This document shows positions 38,772 to 63,443 of a stretch of DNA of 64,000 nucleotides, one piece after another. The notes under the pieces are model-generated. The model worked only from the letters and a program-made list of their open reading frames with translations. It made no database searches and had not been told where the DNA came from. Each line of letters opens with the position of its first letter. The stretch's first letter is position 1. The DNA comes from Taeniopygia guttata (Eukaryota > Chordata > Aves > Passeriformes > Estrildidae), in NCBI RefSeq assembly GCF_048771995.1, contig NC_133044.1:330001-394000 (forward strand). The letters are read 5' to 3'. The position numbers were made by a program, and so were the translations under genes.

Positions 38772-41196
<2,425 letters not shown>

Positions 41197-41244: not shown

Positions 41245-43417
<2,173 letters not shown>

Positions 43418-43639
43418 GCGGCGAGGGGACCGGGAAGGGCTGAGCCCGGCGGCACCGGGGCGGGCCGGCCGCGGCTCCTTCCCCGGCCCCGAGAGCGGAG
43501 CCGAGAGCGGAGCCCGGCACGCAGCCAGGGACGGTCCCCTCTGCCCGAAAGGGCTCAGCCGGGGATGCTGCCGGCGACGCTGCGGGACAAGGGAGCATCC
43601 AGCACCCGGGCTGTGAAGGGGACACGTCCGAGCGCGGAG

Positions 43640-43975
<336 letters not shown>

Positions 43976-45768
43976 AAATGAAATTTTCCTGCTGCTGCTG
44001 CTGCCTCAGAGTGGGCAGTGTTGCTTTCCCTGGCCCGGGTGCAGGGGTGGGCGTGCAGCAGCAGCAGGCTGTACAGCACATGGCTCGGCACCATGGGATG
44101 AGCCCAGCCCGGCTCCAGCCCTGGCCATCGCCGGCACCGGGCACTGCACAGGGCCCAGGACATCACCAGGAAGGTTCTCCAGAACACAGACAGCTGAATG
44201 AGGTCGATCCTGTGGGGGATGGAGGGATCCCCTTCCGCAAGGACAGTGCTGCTGTGCTGGCCAGGCCTGTCCTACGCTCCCCTGTGCAGCGGTTTGGCTG
44301 TCTCCAGCACAGATTTCCCCTCATCATGCTCACACACAGGACTCGGACAAGGCAGCTGGAGAGTGCCAAGACTGGCAGTCCTGCTGGACACTCAGTGGCT
44401 GCAGCCGGGCTCCATGTGCTGCTGGAGCAAGGCTGCACCCTGTGCCCCCTGCACAGGGCTCTCCTCAGCACCAGCATTTTGGTTCTCACTCACATCCCCA
44501 GCCAGGTCTGGGCTTGCTGCTGAGGGCTGAGCAGCCCCCGGTCCTCCCCCATTGCCTCCCATCCTTCTTAGAACAGCGGCGGTACAGCTGCCTTGGCCCC
44601 GCTGGGGCAGCCTCGCCCCATTTCCAGCCAAACTCAGTTTTACAATCACTCCCTGGGTGTTGTGAAATAGCGCAGGGAGGAGAGGGCTCAGGCGGCCAGG
44701 CAGGGCAAAGGTCACTCTGCCCCGCTGCTGCCGGACCTGTGCCACTCAGGGCAGCTCAAGGAGCAGGTTTTGCCCTGGCATGTGGGCTGCCAGCCTGGCT
44801 GGCCCCGCCGGGACCCGGCCCCTGCCTGCAGCCCTGCCAGGCTGGCGGGCAGCAGCCTCCCGCAGGACCCTCACTGCCTGCACGGCTGGTGTGGGCAGGA
44901 GGGAGCTGCAGAGTGAGATCAGACCCTGTTTCCTTCCAATTCAGTTTGAAACCTCCTGAAAGACATCACCCTCATAGACTAGCGAGGTTTGGCCTGCCCG
45001 CTCTCACCCTCAGTGTGCCCGCGCAGTCAGAGCTGTCTATTTTTGTAGTTCAATATTTATATACTCTATTAAAATGCTTTATGAGATTGACAGCAGCAGT
45101 CACCAACCAGCTCTTTGGTAAAAACAAACCCCAAAGCATATGAGCTGCACTAGCAGGGCAGAAATTAGCGGCTTTCATACTTTTTCTTTGGCTGTTATGT
45201 GACTAGTCAGGCTTTGGAGGGCTGCTTCCCATCCTTCCTAGACAATCCTGATAGACACAGTATGTTGCATCTTTATTACAAACTTCTTCATGAGATCATG
45301 GTGTTCATGACTGAGCATTGAAAAGTGGAGGGAGAAGTATGACCCTTCTCCTGTGTAAATACCTTCCTAGCAATCATCATCCGTAGTGCCTAGTATGTAA
45401 ATGAAGCAACCCTGTCTGCGCTGCAGGGCCCTTTCCTCTGCACCAGTAATTAGCAGCTTGCTCAAGGAGTTGATCTCATTTCAGTGCCCCATGCAGGTCC
45501 CTCCCCAGTGCTCCCGGTGCTGGGCAGGTCTGGAGCCCGGGTGGGCAGCAGAGCCTCCTGCAGTGAGGGGGGTTCCAAAGGGATGGAGAGCGAGCACCCC
45601 AGTTCCCTCCTTCATGCCAATGTAATGTGCTTGGAAATTAGTTGTCAGGGCGAGCCCTGCACTTTTCCTTGGGCACATTTGCCTTGGAGCAGGAAGGATC
45701 AGCTCTTGCGTGCTGTACCTGCTTCAGTCACTGCTGCTTTTCTTAGGGGGGAGGGAAGCTCTAGAGAT

Positions 45769-50059: not shown

Positions 50060-50174
50060 ATGGTCATCCGAGCGGGCGAGATGCCGCCGGCCGCCGTGCC
50101 GGCCGCGCAGGGCGCCGAGCAGCAGCACCCGGCACCCCGCCACAGCCGGCCCGCCGACGCGCACCAGCGCCCCG
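50060..50174 (+). CDS. CLUH: CLUH coding exon 1
   Basis: ATG begins MVIRAGEMPPAAVPAAQG, then a short Gln/His/Pro/Arg-rich stretch to HQRP. The exon ends CCCCG|GTAAGG after 115 bp in phase 1, so the leftover G joins AG of the next exon as E39. The exon lies in the promoter CpG island. CLUH is a cytosolic RNA-binding protein that binds mRNAs for nuclear-encoded mitochondrial proteins and controls mitochondrial distribution and metabolism. This N-terminal piece is poorly conserved, so the call rests on phase, position and the CpG promoter. The start used in human CLUH corresponds to an internal ATG in exon 2 (60,955). Confidence 0.75.
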
Positions 50175-50919: not shown

Positions 50920-53900
50920 CTGACATGTTAAATACTCGTGAGCAAGGGCTTTCCTGGGACGGGCAGAGGCTCGTTCGACATCTCAGCTGGAAACTGCAGG
51001 TTTAACTCGCCCTTTGCTGGCTGTTCTGGCTCTGTGCGGGAGCCTGCGTGGCTCAGGGACAGTGTGCAGCTCCATGTCCTCGCTGTTCTCAGCGCCAGCT
51101 CCCGGGCTGGCACCGACCCTGAGATGCCTGCAGCTGCCCTGGGGTTGCTCAGTGTGATGTTTGTATCTTCAAGAACTTAGGAGCCTGAGCACCATCTCTG
51201 CCTAGGCTCTTTTTTTTAGTTCCTAAAGCAAAAGGCACAGAAGCAGCGTGGCTCGTGGCTGGCCTTCGTCCTGAGGCACGTGAATCCCCTGACTGACCCA
51301 CACGTAGCTTCCATCCCCCACTGGTTTTATGGTATCGAGGTGGATTTTTGAAGTTTGTCACCTAAAGCAAAGTTCACTGGCATTTGGTAGTGGAGCAGGT
51401 TGGATGCAGTTCAGGAGTGGGAAGCTCAGTGCTGGTAGCCTCCCCCTCTCACCCCCGTGCTGGATTTTGCAGCAAGCATCACGCCTGTAGTGCCAGCAAC
51501 CAGGTTAAAAAGTTATGCAGTGTAATCTCTGCCTCTCCAGCCACAATTGATTGCTGAGGGAGGATGGAAGATGGAAAAATCCTTTATGTGATCCAGCAGT
51601 GCATGTGGAATCTGAGGAGGAGCAGAGGAAGGTCTCGCCTGGGAGCGGAGTCAGCCCGGCCACCCTGGCATCAGCCTCACCAGCTCTGTTGTTCCCAGTG
51701 CTGCGTGTGCCCTGCAGAGCACCCGTGTGGGCAGGCACTGGCTGTGTCTGGGGCAGCTCTCACCCAGTACCTGGAGCTGTGGGCTCCTTGCCGCAGAAAC
51801 CCCCCCGAGCTGTGCCAGGCACCCGGGCTCAGGTGCTGGGCTCTGTGCCAGGCGTTGAGACTACTCTGACCTTCTGAATGCAGAAACATAAAAGCGTGGG
51901 CAGCTGGGGTTTCTGTAACGATTCTGATGGGCACAGTTTTGGGTTGTTACCTTTCCTATCAGCTGGTGTGAGATCAGACAGCCACTGTGTACAGCGTTTC
52001 TTGGATTATTTTTATTCCTACAGTCTTCTCTGCCTTAGAACAAGTTTCTCACATACAAGTTTAGCAGTGCTTCTAGCTACTGTAAAATGCCTTTCAACCT
52101 TGCCTTGCCCAAATTTGTCTTCTCCTGGCTCAGTCCCTCCGTCCCCAAGCTCCCTGCTTTCAGACACGTCTTCTGTTAGAGTAGCGGAGAATGCAGGTGT
52201 TAATTGAAAAACTGCTGTGGAGGCAAGTGTAGCTGTGCATTAGCAACAAGGTCAGAAGGCTGATTCTTAATCTGGGGGTATGCAATCGCTGTCTGTTGCC
52301 CAACCTTGGAGGTTCACTGGTGTTTTGGAAAGGACTGAATTGCTGGCAGTCGGGGCTTTTAATACGCAGCTTTAACAGGCTTGGGGGGGACAGTCGGAGG
52401 AAAGTTGTGCAAGAGAAATCTGATCACTAGTACAAGGTTAAGAAGAGGAAAGGAGTGTGATAGCACAGCATCTGTATGGCAGGATGAGGGATGGGAACCC
52501 GAGGGGATCGTGTTCAGGGCAGTTCTGTCAGTGGGATAAGAGCTGAGCTCCCACTGGAAGCTCTCTGCTCTGCCTGAGCAGCCTTGCTGCTGGGTTTTCC
52601 AGCTGAAAAGTGGAAGTAAGTAGGTCAGGAACATGCACTGAGATAAATCCACCTGCAGACTCAGAACTGCCTCGTGCACAGTAAAACCAGCACTGTGTTG
52701 CAGAATCCTGTGTTTACCTTCATTGTCTGTACATGACTAAACTTGGCAGCACACTCCTCTTCTGGCACAGCTTCCCAGCACTTGCTTTACTTTCCTGCAT
52801 TGTGCTCCATTGGTTGTGCTGGAAAGTTGTTATTTCGAGAAGTTTTACAGGTCTGAAGTTCATGCATTTTTAAATTTGCATTTAAGAAGCAATGCCAGTC
52901 CTTGGGGCAGTGCTTGGACAGTGTGCCAAAGATGAAAACCAGCACGTGGTTCCTCCTGTGGTGGCAGTGGCTGTCACTTTTGGCAGTAGGTCAGGTTTTT
53001 GCCATAGTAGTAAGGCTCTCTCAGGATTAGCTTTTGGTTGGCATGTTTTTCTAAAAAAGCATTTCCTTAGTTTGTCTTTCACATTAAAGAGAAAATCTCT
53101 ACTACAAGCTGTTGAAGAGGCTGCAGGCTCAGAGAAGTCGTATGTAGTTATGTCCAATGACATAAAACTGCAGGATCATGAATCTTGCCCAGAGCTCCAG
53201 CGGGTCGGATTAGCCTGTGACTAGCCCTGCTTCCCAGGCTAGCCAGCCTGCTGCCCTTGGGGTGGGATGAAACTGGGAATGGCAGTGTGGATCCTGGCCG
53301 TTCTCAGGCTGTGCTGTGCCGAGTACCCTGCGTGCTCTGTCTTTGCTGTTGGTGTCCCTGCAGCCTGCGAGGTCTCCACAGCCTGGAGGCTCACTGCAGG
53401 GTGGGCAGTGGTGCCAGCGGGCTCAGGGCGCTGTGCGAGCTGGGGTGGATCACCCGGTGGTGTCCCTGGCAGAGGGGTTCCTGTGGGGCAGGCACGTGCC
53501 CGGGCTGCTGCTTGCAGCACCCTTGCAGAGCTGCGGTCGTGGCCCGAGCGGCTGCGGGCGAGTGGACACGGCTGTGCCACGGGGCAGCCGGAGCTGCTGA
53601 GGCCATCACAGCTGCCAGAGCTCCCCTGCAAAACCTGCCCACAGAGCAGCAGGTTGGTTCCCTGCCCTTGCTGTCCCAGGAGCTTTCTCAAACTGAGGTA
53701 TGCACAAGAGTAAGGCACAGAGACTTGGAGGATTATCAGCTGGTTCTTGGTTTCTGTCTGAAATACAATTCCTTCCGTCGGCTCTCTTGATATTTGAGAA
53801 ACATGCTCTTCCTGACACAGTTCATGTTTTTGATTGTGCTGGTCTTTGCACTTTGCATTAGTCCTGCTCTTTGCGCCTGGTTTCTGTGATGTTTGAGTTG

Positions 53901-55290
53901 TGTGTTATTGTAGCAGCATCAACCAGACAGCCAGTTTCAAGGCTAGGTTAATGAAAAGTTTCGGCCAGATGGAAAGTTTACAAATGAGTTTAAATGTAGT
54001 TCCCAGATGTAGAGACTGCAGGATAGGTAACTGAGGGTGCCAGATGCAAAGCACAAAGCATTTCAGCAGCTCTGAGTGCCTGAGCCAGCAGCTGCGGGAC
54101 CCTGTGGATGTCCTGGGGCTTGGCCCTGCCCAGAGCACTGCAGGCTGCAGCCTCACCGTGCTCTGCTCTCTCTCTGGGCCAGTCTCAGTGGTGTGAAGCT
54201 GCTGAGAAATAAATGCAGAGCTTGTACCTCTGCCTACAGATCTATTAGAACCAATTTGAGTTTAATGATGGCAGTAGAGCAGCACTAATGTTTCACTGTG
54301 GGCTCTTATTAAAAGAAGTCCTTGTTGAACCTAAAGTGGGAAGTTCCTGGGAAGCTGTGGTTTCTGCAGGGAGGCATCTCCACATGTCTCCCATCTTCCC
54401 TGACGGGATGTCCTGCAGAAATGTTTTCATTAGGCCATCTCTGGAGCTAATGCCTATTCATTTAGTTAATTTATTTGGATTCATTAAACTATTTATTCAG
54501 TTTCATTTATTATTCAGCTAAAATTTAATTTGCATTGCTGTACTGACACCAGCCTTCAAAGGTTAGAGCTAACTTATACACTCTTGTCAGCTTACATACG
54601 CATGTGAGCTTGCTTTGGCTGTAGTTAAAGAAATGCAGCTCAGCTTCATGAGACCTGACCAGGTATTTCTAGGAGATTCCTCCTCTTCCCAGAGGTCTCT
54701 TCATAAGGAGGAAGAGTTGAAGCTATCAGTACATTTAAAGTCCTTCAAAAATGACAAATCACAAGAAAAACACAGTGCTCATGTGATCTGAAAGTTGGTG
54801 CTGGCTCTTGGGACTGAGGGGTACCCAGTGGTGAGGCTCCAGAGCCCCGAGGCCTGTCCTGTGCCAAAGGAGCGATACCTGGATGATGCCAGCGATGGAG
54901 GTGAGGGGCCTGTGGCACGGCCTCGCTGGAGGCGAGCAGTGGCCTGCTTGGCCACAACCTCGCCGGCCACCTGGTGCTTGGAGAACGCTCCAGCGCCATA
55001 ATCCCTGCTTCAGTTGCCATGGTTTTCCTTAAGTAGCACAGAGAGAGGAGAGGTGTTAGGGGATTGCATGTGTGGTTTTGTGGTTTGTGTGTGTTTTATA
55101 TGGCAGAGTAGCGTGAGAGGAGACAGAATTCGTCTAGAAACTTACTGGTTCACAGCCTGAATGCTTTGTGCTCGCCTGCTTAGTATGGATGGCTGTGCCG
55201 GGCCCGGGCGTGCAATAGTAACTGCCCTCGCCTTGAAATTCAATGCATCTCACTTGCTCGGGTTTGGCACAGCGCTCCCGGGCTGCACTG
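50920..55290 (+). other. CLUH: CLUH intron 1, first part
   Basis: Intronic DNA with no supported exon. A frame near 54,795-55,001 ends in a donor-like GGAG|GTGAGG but has no convincing acceptor. No repeats were recognised. Confidence 0.5.
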
Positions 55291-55310
55291 GTGTGGCACT
55301 CGAGATGGAG

Positions 55311-55320
55311 CTATTTATAC
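55311..55320 (+). promoter_or_regulatory. TATA/MEF2-like box of a possible internal CLUH promoter
   Basis: CTATTTATAC contains TATTTATA, a good TATA variant, and differs by one base from the MEF2 consensus. It is followed by about 100 bp of CG-rich sequence with a strong donor-like GCAGCG|GTGAGG (last exonic base 55,441). It lies 380 bp upstream of the 286-codon open frame. A tissue-restricted promoter would fit. Confidence 0.35.
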
Positions 55321-55697
55321 CCAGCGCGGCCCGGCCGGCATCCCCCGAGTGCCTGGGCAGCCGTGTGAGCCCGGCTGTGCTGCGGGCGGGGAGCAGAGCC
55401 GCAGCTGCGGGGCTGCTCCGCGCTGGGGACAGCGTGCAGCGGTGAGGATCCCAGGCTGCACTCTGGGGAAACTGCTGCCAGCCCAGCATCCGATTCTGGT
55501 GAGCACAGGGGACGTGGGATCCTGCGTGGAGTCGGCTGCTGGACCCCTGTGTCCGGCCGCGCTGGGGCCCAGCGGGCATTCTCTTTGGAGAAGGCAGCGG
55601 AGGGCACAGGCCGCGCGTGGGAGTGTGCCTTGTGGGGGCTTCAGTGTTGGTGTGAAACGCAGCTGACTGTTGTGATCCGGTGCTGCACCAGCCAGCC

Positions 55698-56556
55698 ATG
55701 GGAAACGGCCTTTTTGCAAACTGCTGCAGGCAAGTCACCGACCTCCTCTTCCAGCCCCGCAGCTCTGGCTCACCCGACGAGAGGTCGCCCCTCTTGCCCA
55801 AGTCTCCCACCAGCTGCGCTGTCTTCCCAGAGATGCCAGAAGCTGCCCAGTGTGCTGGGCTGTATCCAGACATCATCCCCAGTGAGGCACTGACTGGAAG
55901 CTTGCAGAAGGGCACTGAATACATCCAAGACCTGTCTGAGAGCAAGGACAAAGAAGGAATGATGACAGTTTGTGATAAGAGCAGTTTGAGACCTGGCGTC
56001 GGCGCGGTTGGCCTGCTCCAGCGGACAGAGGCATCCCGTGCAGTGACTGTCCTTCCAGCCGACCTTGGGGACAGGCCGGCAGGGCTGGTTGATCATGCTC
56101 AGTCACTTGAGGCCTGCCAGAGCTGTGTGAAACTTGAGGACAGCGGCTTAGCCCACAGATCCTGCCGCCCGGAGGAGCACGTGGCAGCAGCTGACCCTGG
56201 AGCACATTCCGCTGGCCAGGGCCACGGCGAGGGGCGAGCAGCCTTAGCCTTGGCTCCAGACAGCGTGCTGAAGTGCAGAGGTCCTGCTCCCTCCCTGGGG
56301 AGCCCTGGGACACCGTCCTCTGCTCTGCTGTCAAGTGCGGGGAAAACCCTGCCAGCACCAAGTGCAGTTGTGCTGCCTGTTCCCCCTGGTGAGGCGTCAC
56401 CTCAGGCTCAGAACACAAGTGCTGGTTGTGTGACAGAGCCTACTGCCTGCCCCAGCACAAGGTCAAGCTGCGGTGCTGATTCCCAGGCCCAGGTTCTGGC
56501 CTCAAAGCAGCAGCAGCAGAAGAAGAAGAGGAAGAAAAAGAGGCTTCCTCTCCCAG
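55698..56556 (+). CDS. candidate alternative 5' coding exon of CLUH
   Basis: ATG in strong context (G at -3, G at +4), with an in-frame TGA 45 bp upstream, starts MGNGLFANCCRQVTDLLF. An acidic/dileucine motif follows (DERSPLLP). A long Ser/Ala/Pro-rich middle, unlikely to be folded, leads to a polybasic end (KQQQQKKKRKKKRLPLP). The frame stays open for 372 codons, to 56,813. At 56,556 a CCCAG|GTGCTC donor leaves one G, the phase CLUH exon 2 needs (E, then HPSGVAL). MGN plus paired cysteines suggests acylated membrane attachment, but F6 is unusual for N-myristoyl transferase. I do not recognise the protein. The donor is only moderate. A separate one-exon gene or a chance frame are alternatives. 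Confidence 0.4.
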
Positions 56557-56819
56557 GTGCTCTGTCCTGCTACATGGAGCCAGCACACCGTATGCCCCTC
56601 ACAGGGGTGGGTGGCTGCGTGCGCCTGTGGGATGGGGCAGCACAAAGGAGAGGGGAGGGGTGTGGAGGTGATGTTTTAACTTCACAGGTGAAGGAGGAAG
56701 GTGGCAAGTTATCCCACCTGGGTGTGTACAACAGAGGGACCTGTCTGTGCCTTGTTCATGTCAGCAAAGCAAACTTAAAGGTGTTTTGCTTGTCTTTTTC
56801 TCAGTTCATAAGGTAAATC

Positions 56820-57615
56820 CCTCTTTTGTTTGTAACTGCGAACGTGGTCCTTGTAAAGGATGGGAGTGGATCTGCCCAGCCCAGTCTGCAGCAGGTTGGG
56901 TGGAAGTGTGCAGCTGTGAGGGACCAGCACAGGAAGCCTTTGGTTTCCTTCACCTGTGTGGAGGTGGAGGACAGGCCTGAGCTATGGGGGGGAGCAGGTC
57001 CGTCAGCTGTGCTGAGGATGGGATGGGTGTTCCTTCTTTGCCTTCACCTGATGCATTATTGCAGTGCAGTGGGGACAGTGGGCCCCAGCCAGCTGGCCTC
57101 TCAAAATGGCACTGGAGCTGATCATAGGAAATGCATTCCAAAAGTTGGTGCTGGTAAAGGTAGGGGAGTTTAGTTTTTAGTTTTGTCCCTCTAGCAATTT
57201 CTCCAGTTACTAAATGTAAGGAAGGAAACTCCCCACTAACAGAGCAGTCCCTGCAGACCAGGCTAACTCCCAGCAACACAGTGTTGCTGACTTCTGGATC
57301 CAATAATCTTTGAAAAGGATTTGTGTCTGACTTTGGTTCAGAAGATTTGTTAGAACGTCAATCAGTTATTAACCACCTGTTCCCAGGATCTGTGCTGTCT
57401 AGCTGTGCGCAGCCAGCAGGTTTTGGGTTCTCAGGTGTGTGCCCTCCCTCACGCCAGGGTCTGTGCAGGGGTGTGCCAATGCCACAGCCTGGCTGTAGCT
57501 GGGAAGCGTGATTAAAGCAGGCCCTGTCACCCTGCAGGCTCCGAGATGACACCTAATCTCCCGTCTGATCCTTTGTGCCAGGGTGGGCGGGTGCGGGTCG
57601 CTGCAGCGGTGCCCA
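56820..57615 (+). other. CLUH: CLUH intron 1, middle part
   Basis: No gene or repeat was recognised. A strong donor-like AAG|GTAAAT at 56,813 lies right at the end of the long open frame, but in phase 2, which does not fit CLUH exon 2. Confidence 0.45.
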
Positions 57616-57620
57616 GCCAC

Positions 57621-57795
57621 GCTCTGCTCTGCGTGTGTGCAGGGATTGCTGCGCTCTGCTCTGCGTGTGTGCAGGGATTGCTGCGCTCTGCTCTGCGTGT
57701 GTGCAGGGATTGCTGCGCTCTGCTCTGCATGTGTGCAGGGATTGCTGCGCGCTGCTCTGCATGTGTGCAGGGATTGCTGCGCTCTGCTCTGGGCA
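57621..57795. repeat. minisatellite, 32-bp unit, about 5.4 copies
   Basis: GCTCTGCTCTGCGTGTGTGC recurs at 57,621, 57,653, 57,685, 57,717 and 57,749, each 32 bp apart and followed by AGGGATTGCTGC. A partial sixth copy starts at 57,781. It lies in CLUH intron 1. Cysteine-rich shadow frames on both strands result from it. Confidence 0.95.
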
Positions 57796-57799
57796 GCAC

Positions 57800-60700
57800 T
57801 GAACACCGAGGTACAGCCCGGCCGGAGCTCGCAGCCTCTGCACGCTCCGAGCTGCAGCTGGAGTGCAGGAGGAGGGTCCTTGTGGGGCACGGGCACATCC
57901 CTGGGAATGGCAGGGGAGACCAGGGGTCACAGCCTTCGGTCGAGACCACAAACCTGCGTGTGGAGGCCGACGTGACCCGGCAGGGATCTCCGTCTGCAGC
58001 AGCGAGCAGGGCGGTAAGCGGGAGGAGCGGGTGGAACCGCTTCCCTGTGACTCAGACACCTTCTGTGAGCCACGGCAGCCAGACACGGCTGCCCGCCTGT
58101 TTGGGGCTTGAAGGAGAGCAGGGAACAGGAGAGAGGTCTGTGCAGGTGTCGTTAAGGTGTTCCTGTGCCTCCTCCTGCTGTCCCAAGTAGGCTGAAATCC
58201 TGTGAAATCCATGAGTGCCCCATGATGTACTCCCCCTGCGCTGGCACTGCCGAGTCGGGCTGCAGCGGGTGGGAGGAAGCGGTGACCCACTTTAAGGCAG
58301 GTGGGTGCAGCTCTGCTCCCTCAGGGTCCACAGCAGGTGAGTCAGCACCCAGCAGGCAGCACAGCCTCCAGGCCAGCTTGCACTTCCTTGAAACATCCCC
58401 ATTCTGTACAGAACCCCTCTGGAAAGCTGTGCCTGGCTCACATCCCAGGGTTAACCGGCTGCACAGCAGATCTTCTCCAGTCCAGACTTAACTTTTGTTT
58501 CTGAACTTAAGACTGTGCTGGCTGGAGCTAGATCCTCTAGCATAAGGAGTCATGAAGGTGTTGCCTCTACATGTCTCTTGTCACAAAGTGCAGCACTGTG
58601 CTGGCCCTGCCTTCATTCAAGTAAGGAAAAGGGGTGGAAGGTGTGAACATGTATTATTTCTGCAGACTAGGAGGAATATTCTGATTTCTGAAACATTAGC
58701 TAGTTTGAGGATCTTGCACCACTGAGCAGTGAAAAGCAGAAGTGTGGTCCTGGCTGATAACTTTCCCTTGTTGTGTTCAGGTTTCCTCTCTCTTGGCTTT
58801 GCTGCTGAAGGTGTTTGCTGTTCTGCAGACTGACGTGTGGATGGGTTGCAGTGCCAGCCTTCCTTTGAGCCAAATTCTGTCTCCTTTCTGGCTACCGCAG
58901 CAGGAACAGAAGTGATCCTGCCCTGCCTGGATGGGCAGGGGCTGGGCCAAGCCTGGCTGGGGCGCCTGGCAGGTCATCCTGTCTGCAGTGCCGGTAGCCC
59001 CAGGTGCAGCATTTCCGTGGTGGCTTGTCTCCGCTCCCTCCAGATCCCCACATGTTCAGGCAGCCCAGGAGTATGGCTGTGCTGGCTGTAGGGTGTGACG
59101 AGGGGCTCTCCCCAGCCCTTTGGGCATGGTGTGGTTTTTCTGAAACCACATCTCTCGAGGCACTCTTGCATGGAGCTTTTCTTCCTCCTTTCTAGCATGA
59201 CAGCAGCTCACTGGAGCCAGAGCCAGTCTCGTCTCGTTTGCCCGTGGCTTCATCTGTCAAAGAAATGAGCAGCAAGTGCTGGGGACATATGCATAGTGAC
59301 AGGGAACATGAGCAGCAGCTGCTGAGCTGCTGAAGGCAGCCGAGGCTGCGTGAGGTAGCTCTGCTACCTGCTGCCTTTCGGAATGGCGGTGCTCTCATTG
59401 CGTTTTTTGCCCTTTCACCATGTCCTAAGTCAGCCCTGACAGTCTTCTCTGAGGGTTTGCTGTTGGCAGTCGTCATCATCTGGGGCAGGGATGTGACCCT
59501 TCAGGGATGCTTTTGCAGGGCTTGTTGCTGCAGCCTCATGTTGTGCTCCAGAGGTGTACAGGGGGATGTGGTGCTGCCATCTCTCTTCTGGGTTATTGTG
59601 AAGACTGGATGACTTCTCTGGGCTGCGAGAGCAGTTGGGGCTGATGGAGAAGAACTGGCTGTGACAGCTGTAAGTCCTCAAGCCACAGCACTGGTCTAGG
59701 AGGTGAGGGAGGCTGAGCTGCCATTTCCTCTGGAGTGGGGACTGGTGCCTTGCTGGGAGGTGAGGATGAGGAGAGACACCTGCCAGCTGGAGCTGGCTGC
59801 AGCCTGAAGGCATTGGCCTGGCTTGCAGCTGTCCTGACCCTGTGCAGCCTTTCAGAAGGGCTGTTTCTGCTGCCTGGGAAAGCGCCCCACCTGCACCATC
59901 TGTGCTGCCTGCAGGTGGGGGCCAGAGAGCACCAACCTGGAACTGCTGCTGCGTGTGACCTTGGGGTGCAGCCGAGTGTGCTGGGCCAGCCCTGCAGGGA
60001 GCACAGCCTGAGGGACACGATGCTCTCTGCAGCACCCACTGCCCCGGGTGTGCGGGCTGGGCTGGTGCCCTTGGGGCACTGGCCTGGCACACTGGGGGCA
60101 AGGAGTACTCTGCCATCTCCCAGAGCTGCTATCTGCAGCTCTTTCCACTCTTCCAGCTTCTCCTGGCAGCCCCTTGGTCCTCTTCAGTGTGGTCCCCAGC
60201 CTGGTTCTGAGGATGTAGGCTCAGTTTAGGAGACTGGCAGCTTCCTAGATCTTATCTGCTCTCTGATGCTATCCAGCTCATTGGAAAAGAAAACAAACCA
60301 TTGCAGAGCTGTGAGGTGGGTGCAGAGAGCTCCCCAGCCCTGTGACACATCTGTCTAAACGAGCACTTAAAATGTCGTCACCATTTTCTTGAATAAAAGT
60401 GCTTAGGCAAAGCCTCACCCTGGCACCATGGGATCTCTGGAAAGTATTTTGGAAATGCAGAGGGTGGCCAGATGTGGGCAGGGCCGTGGGAGCTGCTGTG
60501 TGCCTGTGGTATAACCAGGCTGCCACGTGAGCAGAGCGGTGCTGCCGCTGGCCTCCCTCTCCCTCTGCTCTTTAACGTGTTGGTGCAGAGGTTACAGCTG
60601 CCTCCAGGCCGCAAAGCACCACACACCCTTTTTTTGTAATTAAGAGGCTTCTTAAGACAGCTCAGTGTAGTGTACACTGACCCATCCTCCCTGCTGCCCT

Positions 60701-60931
60701 TCCCTCCCCTTTCTGCACGTGGTTAGTGGAAGATGCAAACACCGCAGGCAAGGGAGAGCACCTTAATTATGCTGTGAGGGAAGGGCCTGGCACACCTCTG
60801 TCTAGTGAGCAGCAAGTGCAGAATAAAACCCTGCCTTTTTAGCCCCTGATTAGCTCGGGCTTTGCAGGTCCAAGCCAGTCTCTGCAGCCCATTGGAGAGG
60901 GCCTTGTCTAAACCCTTCTCTTCTTGCCCAG
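57800..60931 (+). other. CLUH: CLUH intron 1, last part
   Basis: Intronic DNA with no supported exon, repeat family or RNA gene. Long minus-strand frames at 59.4-60.1 kb have no recognisable content. Confidence 0.5.
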
Positions 60932-61128
60932 AGCACCCGTCTGGCGTGGCACTGATGAATGGCAGCGGCCCGCATGACAGCCTCAAGGGCGAGAAGGATG
61001 CCAAGCAGAATGGCCATGAGGAGGCTGACCCGGGAGAAGATGGGAACGACCAGGAGGTCATCGTCATACAGGATACGGGATTTACTGTCAAGATCTGTGC
61101 TCCAGGGATAGAGCCCTTTTCCCTGCAG
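60932..61128 (+). CDS. CLUH: CLUH coding exon 2
   Basis: After TTCTTGCCCAG the exon encodes residues 40-104. [19 protein letters not shown] leads to the acidic [17 protein letters not shown] and then [20 protein letters not shown], nearly identical to [20 protein letters not shown] of human CLUH. This is the start of the ubiquitin-like CLU N-terminal domain. An internal in-frame ATG at 60,955 ([12 protein letters not shown]) corresponds to the human start MLLNGDCPESLK. The exon ends FSLQ|GTACCT in phase 0. Confidence 0.95.
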
Positions 61129-62627
61129 GTACCTGCCCTCACCAGCTGGGGATGGGAGTAGAGGTGGTGGGGAGTATTTGAGCCAGATCCTTTCAGCCAG
61201 GCAGGCAGGGAAGGAGGCAGTGCCTGGGAAAGGCCCCTGTTAACCCTCACAGCCTGCACAGTACCTTCAGGCTGCCTGCAGCTCCCTGACCTGTCTATCT
61301 TCTGACCAGGACTAGGTGGAGAAGGGGGCAGCAGAGGATGGAAAGTGCAGGAGAGACTGCCTGGCCCGTGCCTTGACAGAAATGAAGGAAGAAGGGATGT
61401 GAGCAAGAGGCTGCCTAGCCCAGGCCTGCCTGGGCATTGCAAGGACAGGGAGGGTGCTTTGTTCTGGATCCCAGGTGTGGAGCAAGGGGAAGGAGAACTC
61501 GCTGTGGTGTAGCTCCTTGTCCACACAGAGGGGCTTGGCTATGGAGCTGAGCACAGGGAAAATGCCCTTCCCACTTCTGGGCTGTTTTAAAGAAATGTTG
61601 TGAAAACGTGATTTCTGGGCCTGACTGAGGAAGGGAAAATCCCTTGCTTGCTCAGCAGTTATGACATGATGCTGCTTCAGGGCAGCCTGGATTTGGTACA
61701 GTGACAGGTGCTAGCAGAGCTCAGGGAGCTCAAGCACCGACCTGAAGATCAAGGGAACAATGCAGTCTCCACTTCCCTCTGGATGGAGAGCTCTGCCTCA
61801 TGTAATGTGGACAGTGACATGCTGCCAGCTCAGGATGGGCTCTGATGGGCCTGGTTCGTGGTCCCATTTAGATTGATACCTCACCAAAAACTATCTGAAT
61901 GAAGTCTCTCTTAATTTTGAGGAGCGGTATCTGGGATTTAAACCCAGTGGGAAGTTCGTATCTCCCCAAGACTGGCAGAGAGTGCAGCAAAATCCCATCC
62001 CCTGTGGAAATAGCTGCATCTCAGACTGGCTTTTTGTCTCTTTTAAATCCCCCTGGCTGTTAGTTTTAATAGGCTAATAATAGCAGGCTGTGTTGTTTAC
62101 AGCAGCTTATGTAAACTACCCGAGTCCTCTGGGTTTTCCAGCAGTGTCAGTGGTGCTGGAGCAGAGCAGGAGGTGGGGAGCAGCCCCGGTGCTCAGGTGC
62201 AGTGGCACAGACACACCAGGCATGGGGAGGAGGAACTGGGCTGTTTTCCATGTGCGGCATTCAAGGTCTCACCACTGGTGTGGTGTGAACAGATAAGGGA
62301 AGAGCCCCGCTTCCCCCACTACCTTCTGTTCCTTCACTGCCCTCTGTCACCTCTGTCCCATGACAAGTGCTTGGTGCAGTGCCTGGCTGTTATGTCTCTG
62401 GGTGCCAAGCCCTGTGGGGTGGAACTGCGGTGGCTGACCCTGCCAGAGGTGACAGTGCCCTCCCAGCAGGAGCAGAACTGATCTTCCTGGGAAGGGAGGT
62501 AGAGTCTGGCTTTCCAAGCCTGCAGAGAGAGGTCAGAGAGGTTTCTGATATTGCAGCTGAGGGGCAGAGTTTGGTAAGAGCATGTGGGAGGGTAAACAAT
62601 AATTGTCTGGGTTCTTACCTTCTTAAG
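61129..62627 (+). other. CLUH: CLUH intron 2
   Basis: About 1.5 kb, GTACCT...TTCTTAAG. No repeats or further exons were recognised. Confidence 0.85.
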
Positions 62628-62799
62628 GTTTCTCCTCAAGAGATGGTGCAAGAAATCCATCAAGTGTTGATGGACCGGGAGGATACCTGCCATCGGACCT
62701 GCTTCTCCCTGCAGCTGGATGGCAACGTCCTGGATAACTTTGCTGAGCTGAAGACAATTGAAGGACTGCAGGAGGGCTCGCTGCTGAAAGTGGTGGAAG
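62628..62799 (+). CDS. CLUH: CLUH coding exon 3
   Basis: The exon encodes residues 105-161: [20 protein letters not shown], then [20 protein letters not shown] and [17 protein letters not shown]. Apart from conservative changes (N for H, K for R) it is the human sequence of the CLU N-terminal domain. It ends in phase 1 with GGAAG|GCAAGT. The donor is GC, not GT; the only nearby GT would shift the frame, and the split GAG codon matches the conserved KVVEEPYTV. Confidence 0.97.
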
Positions 62800-62960
62800 G
62801 CAAGTTCTTTCAGACTTGGGAGGGAATGAGTGAGAGTTTTCTTAGGGAGTGATTTTGGCCACCTGTCAGCTCTTTCCTGTGGTTCCATTTTGAGACCTGT
62901 ATGCCAAAGGAGTAAGCAACTGTCTAATTCCAGTTTCTTTCCTTGCTTTTTGGTCATCAG
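62800..62960 (+). other. CLUH: CLUH intron 3, a GC-AG intron
   Basis: 161-bp intron starting GCAAGT and ending TTTTTGGTCATCAG. GC donors are a minor, U2-spliced class that usually keep an otherwise perfect consensus, as here (AAG|GCAAGT). Confidence 0.9.
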
Positions 62961-63104
62961 AGCCATACACAGTGCGAGAAGCCAGGATACACGTGCGCCA
63001 CATCCGGGACCTTCTGAAGAGTCTTGACCCATCAGATGCTTTCAATGGTGTGGACTGTAACTCATTGTCCTTCCTGAGTGTCTTCACTGAAGGAGACCTG
63101 GGAG
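62961..63104 (+). CDS. CLUH: CLUH coding exon 4
   Basis: The exon completes E162 and encodes residues 163-209: [40 protein letters not shown] and FTEGDLG. It matches human [20 protein letters not shown] with few conservative changes. It ends GGAG|GTATGG in phase 1. The segment closes the CLU N-terminal domain. Confidence 0.97.
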
Positions 63105-63315
63105 GTATGGGTCCAAAAGACTTCTCTGGTGTGGTCAGTGGTTTCATTCCCTGACTCCTTGCTCAATTAAACACACAGTAACAATCAGGTGTCCTGGGTC
63201 AGAGTGCAGGAGTGCAGAGAATACTTGGAGTACTTCTGCATCCCTCTTTGAATGATAACTGGGGGAGGGAATGCTGCACTTCTGAGAACTGACTTTATGT
63301 CTCTGTCCGTTCTAG
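63105..63315 (+). other. CLUH: CLUH intron 4
   Basis: 211-bp GT-AG intron (GTATGG...CCGTTCTAG). Nothing else was recognised in it. Confidence 0.93.
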
Positions 63316-63443
63316 ACAGTGGAAAACGGAAGAAGAAAGGTACTGAAATGGAACAAATTGACTGCACCCCTCCTGAACATATCCTGCCAGGTAGCAAAGA
63401 GAGGCCCCTGTGTGCCCTTCAGCCCCAGAACAGAGACTGGAAG
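63316..63443 (+). CDS. CLUH: CLUH coding exon 5
   Basis: The exon completes D210 and encodes residues 211-252: [20 protein letters not shown], then [20 protein letters not shown] and WK. Human CLUH reads [20 protein letters not shown], so one lysine is added here. It ends AAG|GTAGAG in phase 0. The following human segment [20 protein letters not shown] is not present before 64,000, so the rest of the roughly 1,300-residue protein (CLU core and TPR repeats) lies to the right of the window. Confidence 0.96.

Follow-up and report, generated by a model that had tools for sequence, protein, structure and literature searches.

Intron 1 of CLUH contains what is probably a genuine second first exon of this gene, more likely coding than non-coding. 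CLUH is an RNA-binding protein that cares for mitochondria and controls the mRNAs of mitochondrial proteins. As the best explanation of the sequence, we propose with a probability of about 0.5 that a second promoter in intron 1 gives rise to a coding exon that is spliced in phase to exon 2, such that a new tail replaces the 38-residue N-terminus of the canonical protein. All coordinates refer to the stretch of 64 000 nt from Taeniopygia guttata that was analysed (the window). The original prediction had proposed a new CLUH first exon at 55,311–56,556, encoding a membrane-anchored N-terminus of 286 residues. The alternative first exon itself was supported, in that a promoter-like patch and an in-phase, coding-like frame were found; the length of 286 residues and the membrane anchor were not. 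The position 55,311 is that of a TATA-like box, and the frame itself begins at 55,698. The description of the exon as new also needs qualification, as a heart-enriched 5′ exon of mouse Cluh has been published (PMC4111849).

The CLUH locus and an open frame in its first intron

CLUH is located on the + strand at the right end of the window, and the gene runs on rightward past it. Using human CLUH as the tblastn query, four of the nine rows within the window proved to be exons, with the other five having E-values of at least 2.6, whilst 24 CLUH matches were found in C21:392001-422000, three of which are the window's own exons. The CLU_N domain was recovered downstream of the candidate exon and on the same strand (PF15044, Pfam, E-value 3.5e-07), which places the candidate within CLUH. 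A CpG island at ∼49.5–51.0 kb, with a GC content of 0.7–0.85, holds the presumptive canonical exon 1, the donor of which (CCG/GTAAGG at 50,174) is in phase 1 and scores 5.2. We infer the identity of this exon from the island, the phase and a resemblance to the long form of human and mouse CLUH. The CLUH exons of the window are as follows:

50060–50174, + strand: canonical CLUH exon 1, coding part; 38 codons + 1 nt, MVIRAGEMPPAAV..., ATG at 50060
60932–61128, + strand: CLUH exon 2; common acceptor, requiring one G from the preceding exon
62616–62807, + strand: CLUH exon 3 stretch, with the CLU_N domain; tblastn limits, exon borders not exact
62960–63118, + strand: CLUH exon 4 stretch; tblastn limits
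63315–63443, + strand: CLUH exon 5 stretch; tblastn limits

Upstream of CLUH, at 38,985–39,116 (+) and from 42,821 (+), there are coding stretches for a coiled-coil protein, presumably CCDC92B, which is upstream of CLUH in human too. The frame containing the second of these had no Pfam hit above the cut-off, and directly after this CCDC92B-like last exon lies an AGAA microsatellite of 76 copies (43,657–43,960).

The candidate frame lies in CLUH intron 1, between exons 1 and 2 and on the same strand as the gene, and much of its predicted description was borne out. It is open from an ATG at 55,698 to 56,816 (+), and thus has 372 codons, with the stop codon at 56,814–56,816. An in-frame stop is present just 5′ of the ATG, the stop-to-stop frame beginning at 55,656, and the start context, GCCAGCCATGG, is strong as judged by the Kozak rule. 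The protein begins with MGNGLFANCC and also contains DERSPLLP and QQQQKKKRKKKR. Splicing from the donor after 56,556 would leave a single G, which is the phase needed by exon 2, and the TATA-like box CTATTTATA was found at 55,311, 387 bp 5′ of this ATG. The frame can be divided as follows:

55698–56388, + strand: favoured coding segment of the candidate exon; 230 codons plus G, MGNGLFANCC...VVLPVPP, ending at a phase-1 donor, CTG/GTGAGG
56389–56556, + strand: possible extension to the 56,556 donor; 286 codons + G, including the QQQQKKKRKKKR run; donor weak (0.30)
56557–56816, + strand: remainder of the frame; lacks the asymmetry seen in coding sequence

Searches of Pfam, PDB sequences and IMG/VR returned no relatives of the frame; a single row from the PDB sequences was dismissed (E-value 1.6). 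When 55,600–56,600 was compared with its own genome the sole match returned was itself, which is no proof of rarity, and no tandem array with a score of ≥ 80 was detected in this region. A comparison of the window with Rfam produced nothing at gathering scores. Just downstream of the candidate exon, still in CLUH intron 1, is a tandem repeat at 57,620–57,791 (32 bp unit, 5.4 copies, 97 % match).

Frame length and coding signal compared with chance

Both the length of the frame and its codon-position asymmetry exceed chance. Dinucleotide shuffling of the intron (50,938–60,931) produced a frame of ≥ 372 codons in none of 2000 shuffles and one of ≥ 286 codons in two. For local dinucleotide shuffles of 55,300–56,900 the corresponding counts were one and seven of 5000, and for blockwise base shuffles of this local stretch zero and two of 5000. 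An alternative reading is that we are dealing with a chance open frame in a GC-rich intron, with nothing exonic about it. This is in keeping with the one local shuffle that gave a longer frame, and with the candidate being a single case chosen out of a 64 kb window; against it stands the failure of any intron shuffle to reach 372 codons, and overall we consider it unlikely.

Within the frame, G is enriched and T is depleted at codon position 1, as is the case in genes. We compared this G1/T1 asymmetry with that of control placements taken on both strands at every 11 bases, excluding those close to the frame, within the microsatellite region (43,000–44,200) or beyond 60,900. Over 55,698–56,508 the asymmetry was matched by none of 10,174 placements, and over 55,698–56,388 by two of 10,262; simulated frames that had been forced to be stop-free reached the value for 55,698–56,508 in 4 of 3000 cases, or 1 of 3000 on G alone. 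The coding-like asymmetry fades where the proposed exon ends, the tail of the frame, 56,557–56,816, being at chance (749/1500 simulated frames, 3648/10576 placements). This last region is most likely intron. For 56388–56508, the 120 bases that follow the 56,388 donor as far as the QK run, the asymmetry was reached by 331 of 1500 simulated frames, a value that speaks neither for nor against coding.

The fading signal also bears on the idea that CLUH intron 1 harbours another gene, to which the frame would belong as a coding exon that ends at the stop codon at 56,814–56,816 or is spliced elsewhere. Such a gene would have its own promoter-like patch, as well as its own start and stop, and further donors do exist towards the 3′ end, at 56,687 (phase 0, 3.69) and 56,812 (phase 2, 4.94). 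However, over the final 260 bases ahead of the stop codon the coding signal is at chance, the phase fits CLUH exon 2, and the database searches described above revealed no known domain or homologue, such that we regard a nested gene as very unlikely.

To place the frame among others of the same chromosome, we took a census of 304 kb (the window plus 240 kb, with 2 kb counted twice), which contained 32 ATG frames of ≥ 230 codons, a figure in which one frame appears twice. An asymmetry of ≥ 0.12 was seen in three: the candidate frame, a CLUH exon and an MNT-like exon. The CLUH exon matches the human protein, and both it and the MNT-like exon were taken as real, leaving the candidate as the sole frame at this level without assignment to a known gene. 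The MNT-like frame (L013 256-945, +, 230 codons) is on the same contig, ∼115 kb rightward of our candidate, and its translation reads like the final exon of MNT. Among the 29 remaining frames, 16 have a GC content of ≥ 0.70. Four frames are longer than the candidate, as might be expected if such frames arise by chance in GC-rich or repetitive stretches of this chromosome; these, however, all have a GC content of ≥ 0.74 or a repetitive translation, and the chance reading is further weakened by there being no other unassigned frame with an asymmetry of ≥ 0.12. The test itself is insensitive: the CCDC92B-like last exon (frame 42,383–43,414) scores only ∼0.01, and hence the low-scoring frames of the census cannot all be called non-coding. 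Elsewhere in CLUH intron 1, a 112-codon stop-free stretch at 52,886–53,221 (+) has a high asymmetry (0.295) and no Pfam hit, and may be due to chance.

Two other measures were indecisive, and in not being outstanding they are compatible with a chance frame. The codon-usage score, calculated with a human table, was unremarkable: 1488 of 6144 controls attained it when stops went unpenalised, and 68 of 6144 when they were penalised. By this score the true frame was the best of six over 55,698–56,556, but not in the last third. Period-3 power was in approximately the top 2–3 % (35/1969, 42/1962 and 64/1985, depending on the end point).

Promoter-like patch, leader and splice donors

Upstream of the ATG we observed three features that would be consistent with a second promoter:

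55200–55449, + strand: CpG-densest 250 bp window of intron 1, candidate second promoter; 22 CpG, observed/expected 0.78
55311–55319, + strand: TATA-like box CTATTTATA, fitting the MEF2 consensus at 9/10 and lying inside the CpG patch
55345–55697, + strand: putative 5′ leader without ATG, containing donors at 55441 and 55498

The CpG density scan covered intron 1 from 50,950 to 60,900. As the window has 14 CTAWWWWTA sites on its two strands, the box is weak when considered alone, and we did not treat the MEF2/TATA site as strong evidence; this MEF2-like site, not rare in the window, is also the only hint of heart expression in the candidate region. Judging from the box, transcription would start at ∼55,340–55,345. 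The ensuing leader (55,345–55,697) has no ATG, a property shared by 6 of 5000 leader shuffles. Nevertheless, the + strand of the window contains 19 ATG-free gaps of ≥ 393 bases, that of the candidate leader included, and so an ATG-free leader is weaker evidence than it sounds. Splicing of canonical exon 1 into the candidate exon was considered, and a first exon preferred to it on account of the acceptors, with the four between 55,400 and 55,760 that have ≥ 0.6 pyrimidines reaching 0.63–0.74 versus 0.79 for exon 2. A scan of 55,000–57,000 for bacterial promoters and terminators was disregarded, its models being for the wrong kind of organism.

The leader itself contains donors at 55,441 (GCG/GTGAGG, 3.97 bits) and 55,498 (CTG/GTGAGC, 4.89 bits) that could give an exon made of UTR only. 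This is the main rival to a coding exon: the second promoter would be real and the exon untranslated, ending at 55,441 or 55,498 and joining exon 2, with translation restarting at a methionine of exon 2 and the long frame being intronic or present in minor transcripts only. A parallel exists in mouse, where the heart-enriched exon hNE-1 is predicted to be an alternative 5′-UTR with one to two uORFs, giving a product that is 38 residues shorter (PMC4111849). Such an exon would, however, leave both the coding-like asymmetry and the length of the frame unexplained, and we hold it to be doubtful.

For the end of a coding exon we relied on donor scores, which are based on a frequency table. The original prediction had called the donor at 56,556 (CAG/GTGCTC) moderate; by our scoring it is weak, at 0.30 bits. 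A much stronger donor is present at 56,388, which at 5.12 bits is about equal to that of canonical exon 1. Both donors are in phase 1 and can join exon 2; given the same phase and the difference in score, the tail of 230 residues is preferred over the predicted 286, and the polybasic end is thereby omitted. There are seven donors of ≥ 5 bits in the 9.96 kb of the intron, from which ∼0.26 phase-1 donors would be expected in a frame of this length, and as such the presence of one at 56,388 does little to prove an exon. With regard to the weaker donor, the best donor near CLUH exon ends scored ≤ 0.30 in 5 of 23 cases, these ends being tblastn limits, and the sequence immediately before 56,556 is purine-rich, a run that could help this donor. 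The 286-residue form is thus retained as the less likely of the two.

The predicted N-terminus and related isoforms

A, S, L and P abound in the predicted tail, the longer form of which has 12 cysteines, and AlphaFold2 in single-sequence mode found no confident fold (pLDDT 37.3, pTM 0.22). Its N-terminus starts with MGN and has two cysteines nearby, which had led to the suggestion of a membrane anchor through acylation. This is not supported, as GNGLFAN does not fit a PS00008-type N-myristoylation pattern; the caution already voiced about F6 was correct, with F standing where S, T, A, G, C or N is expected. The proposed dileucine motif, [DE]xxxL[LI], is indeed present as ERSPLL, and may be a sorting signal or a chance match, one occurring in 1317 of 5000 shuffled proteins. 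Tethering of a CLUH isoform to membranes is speculative. A membrane-near role in muscle would perhaps not be absurd, given that in Drosophila muscle Clueless works together with dGRASP at the perinuclear endoplasmic reticulum (PMC4434815). The fullest version of the idea is that a bird heart or muscle CLUH promoter gained or kept a long coding exon, and that a disordered, cysteine-bearing tail of 230–286 residues, acylated at MGNGLFANCC, holds CLUH and its translating mRNAs at a membrane; we rate this as distinctly improbable.

The closest known counterpart is mouse hNE-1 (mm9 chr11:74467029-74467303, 275 bp), a heart-enriched novel exon of Cluh described by Hong, Song and Kim (2014, PMC4111849). 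According to that report, hNE-1 was estimated at ∼33 % of Cluh in heart by Cufflinks, and under pressure overload it was reduced by ∼65 %, with the Cluh gene reduced by ∼36 %. In RT-PCR, two heart exons lacked strong expression, and hNE-1 was among them; as it was detected through junctions on both sides, it may be internal instead of being a first exon. The two exons were compared through the published description, and at this level the figure of 38 residues agrees. Like hNE-1, the candidate would be an extra 5′ exon of this gene, and the 38 residues lost in mouse equal the coding part of the finch's canonical exon 1 (38 codons + 1 nt); as this exon encodes 38 residues, the cost of hNE-1 would be exactly that of bypassing exon 1. 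They differ in that hNE-1, of 275 bp, is predicted to be UTR with a shorter product, whereas the candidate has a frame of 230–286 codons that reads into exon 2; since the predicted mouse product is shorter, not longer, hNE-1 would not code into exon 2 (PMC4111849). By analogy, the mouse exon raises the odds of a real, muscle-related second 5′ exon in the finch and lowers its novelty.

Relative to canonical CLUH, the proposed isoform would share exon 2, the downstream domains and the splice phase, and would differ in having a 230-residue tail instead of a 38-residue N-terminus expressed from the CpG-island promoter at 50 kb. Another tissue isoform whose own N-terminus changes its location is the sperm hexokinase 1 isoform HK1S (PMC4736023), although fatty acylation was shown for that protein, and the usual myristoylation pattern is lacking in the candidate. 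No bird CLUH isoform with such an N-terminus was found among the matches listed in the open-access literature, and the accessible portions of PMC8744257, PMC9135405, PMC8948191 and PMC4434815 make no mention of one. The kind of change proposed, an alternative promoter together with an alternative N-terminus, is already known in type.

Taken from promoter to protein, the preferred reading is that transcription would start at ∼55,340 in CLUH intron 1, ∼30 bp past the TATA/MEF2-like box and in a small CpG-rich patch, to be followed by a leader without ATG and by translation from 55,698. The ribosome would read a tail of 230 (less likely 286) residues without a confident fold, and in-phase splicing to exon 2 would put this tail in the place of the 38-residue housekeeping N-terminus. 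The resulting isoform would keep all CLUH domains and gain a tail, which would alter the location or the binding partners of CLUH. It is perhaps muscle-enriched, heart or striated muscle being the most likely site of its production, given the alternative 5′ exon of Cluh used there in mouse (PMC4111849). The frame with its coding-like statistics, the matching phase, the leader without ATG and the CpG patch are observations; the transcription, splicing, tissue and function of this exon are put forward as a proposal. If this is true, then some tissue, probably muscle, makes CLUH with a different front end, a finding that would bear on the placement of CLUH granules and mitochondrial translation in heart, as well as on the observation that mouse hNE-1 falls by ∼65 % in pressure overload versus ∼36 % for the gene as a whole (PMC4111849).
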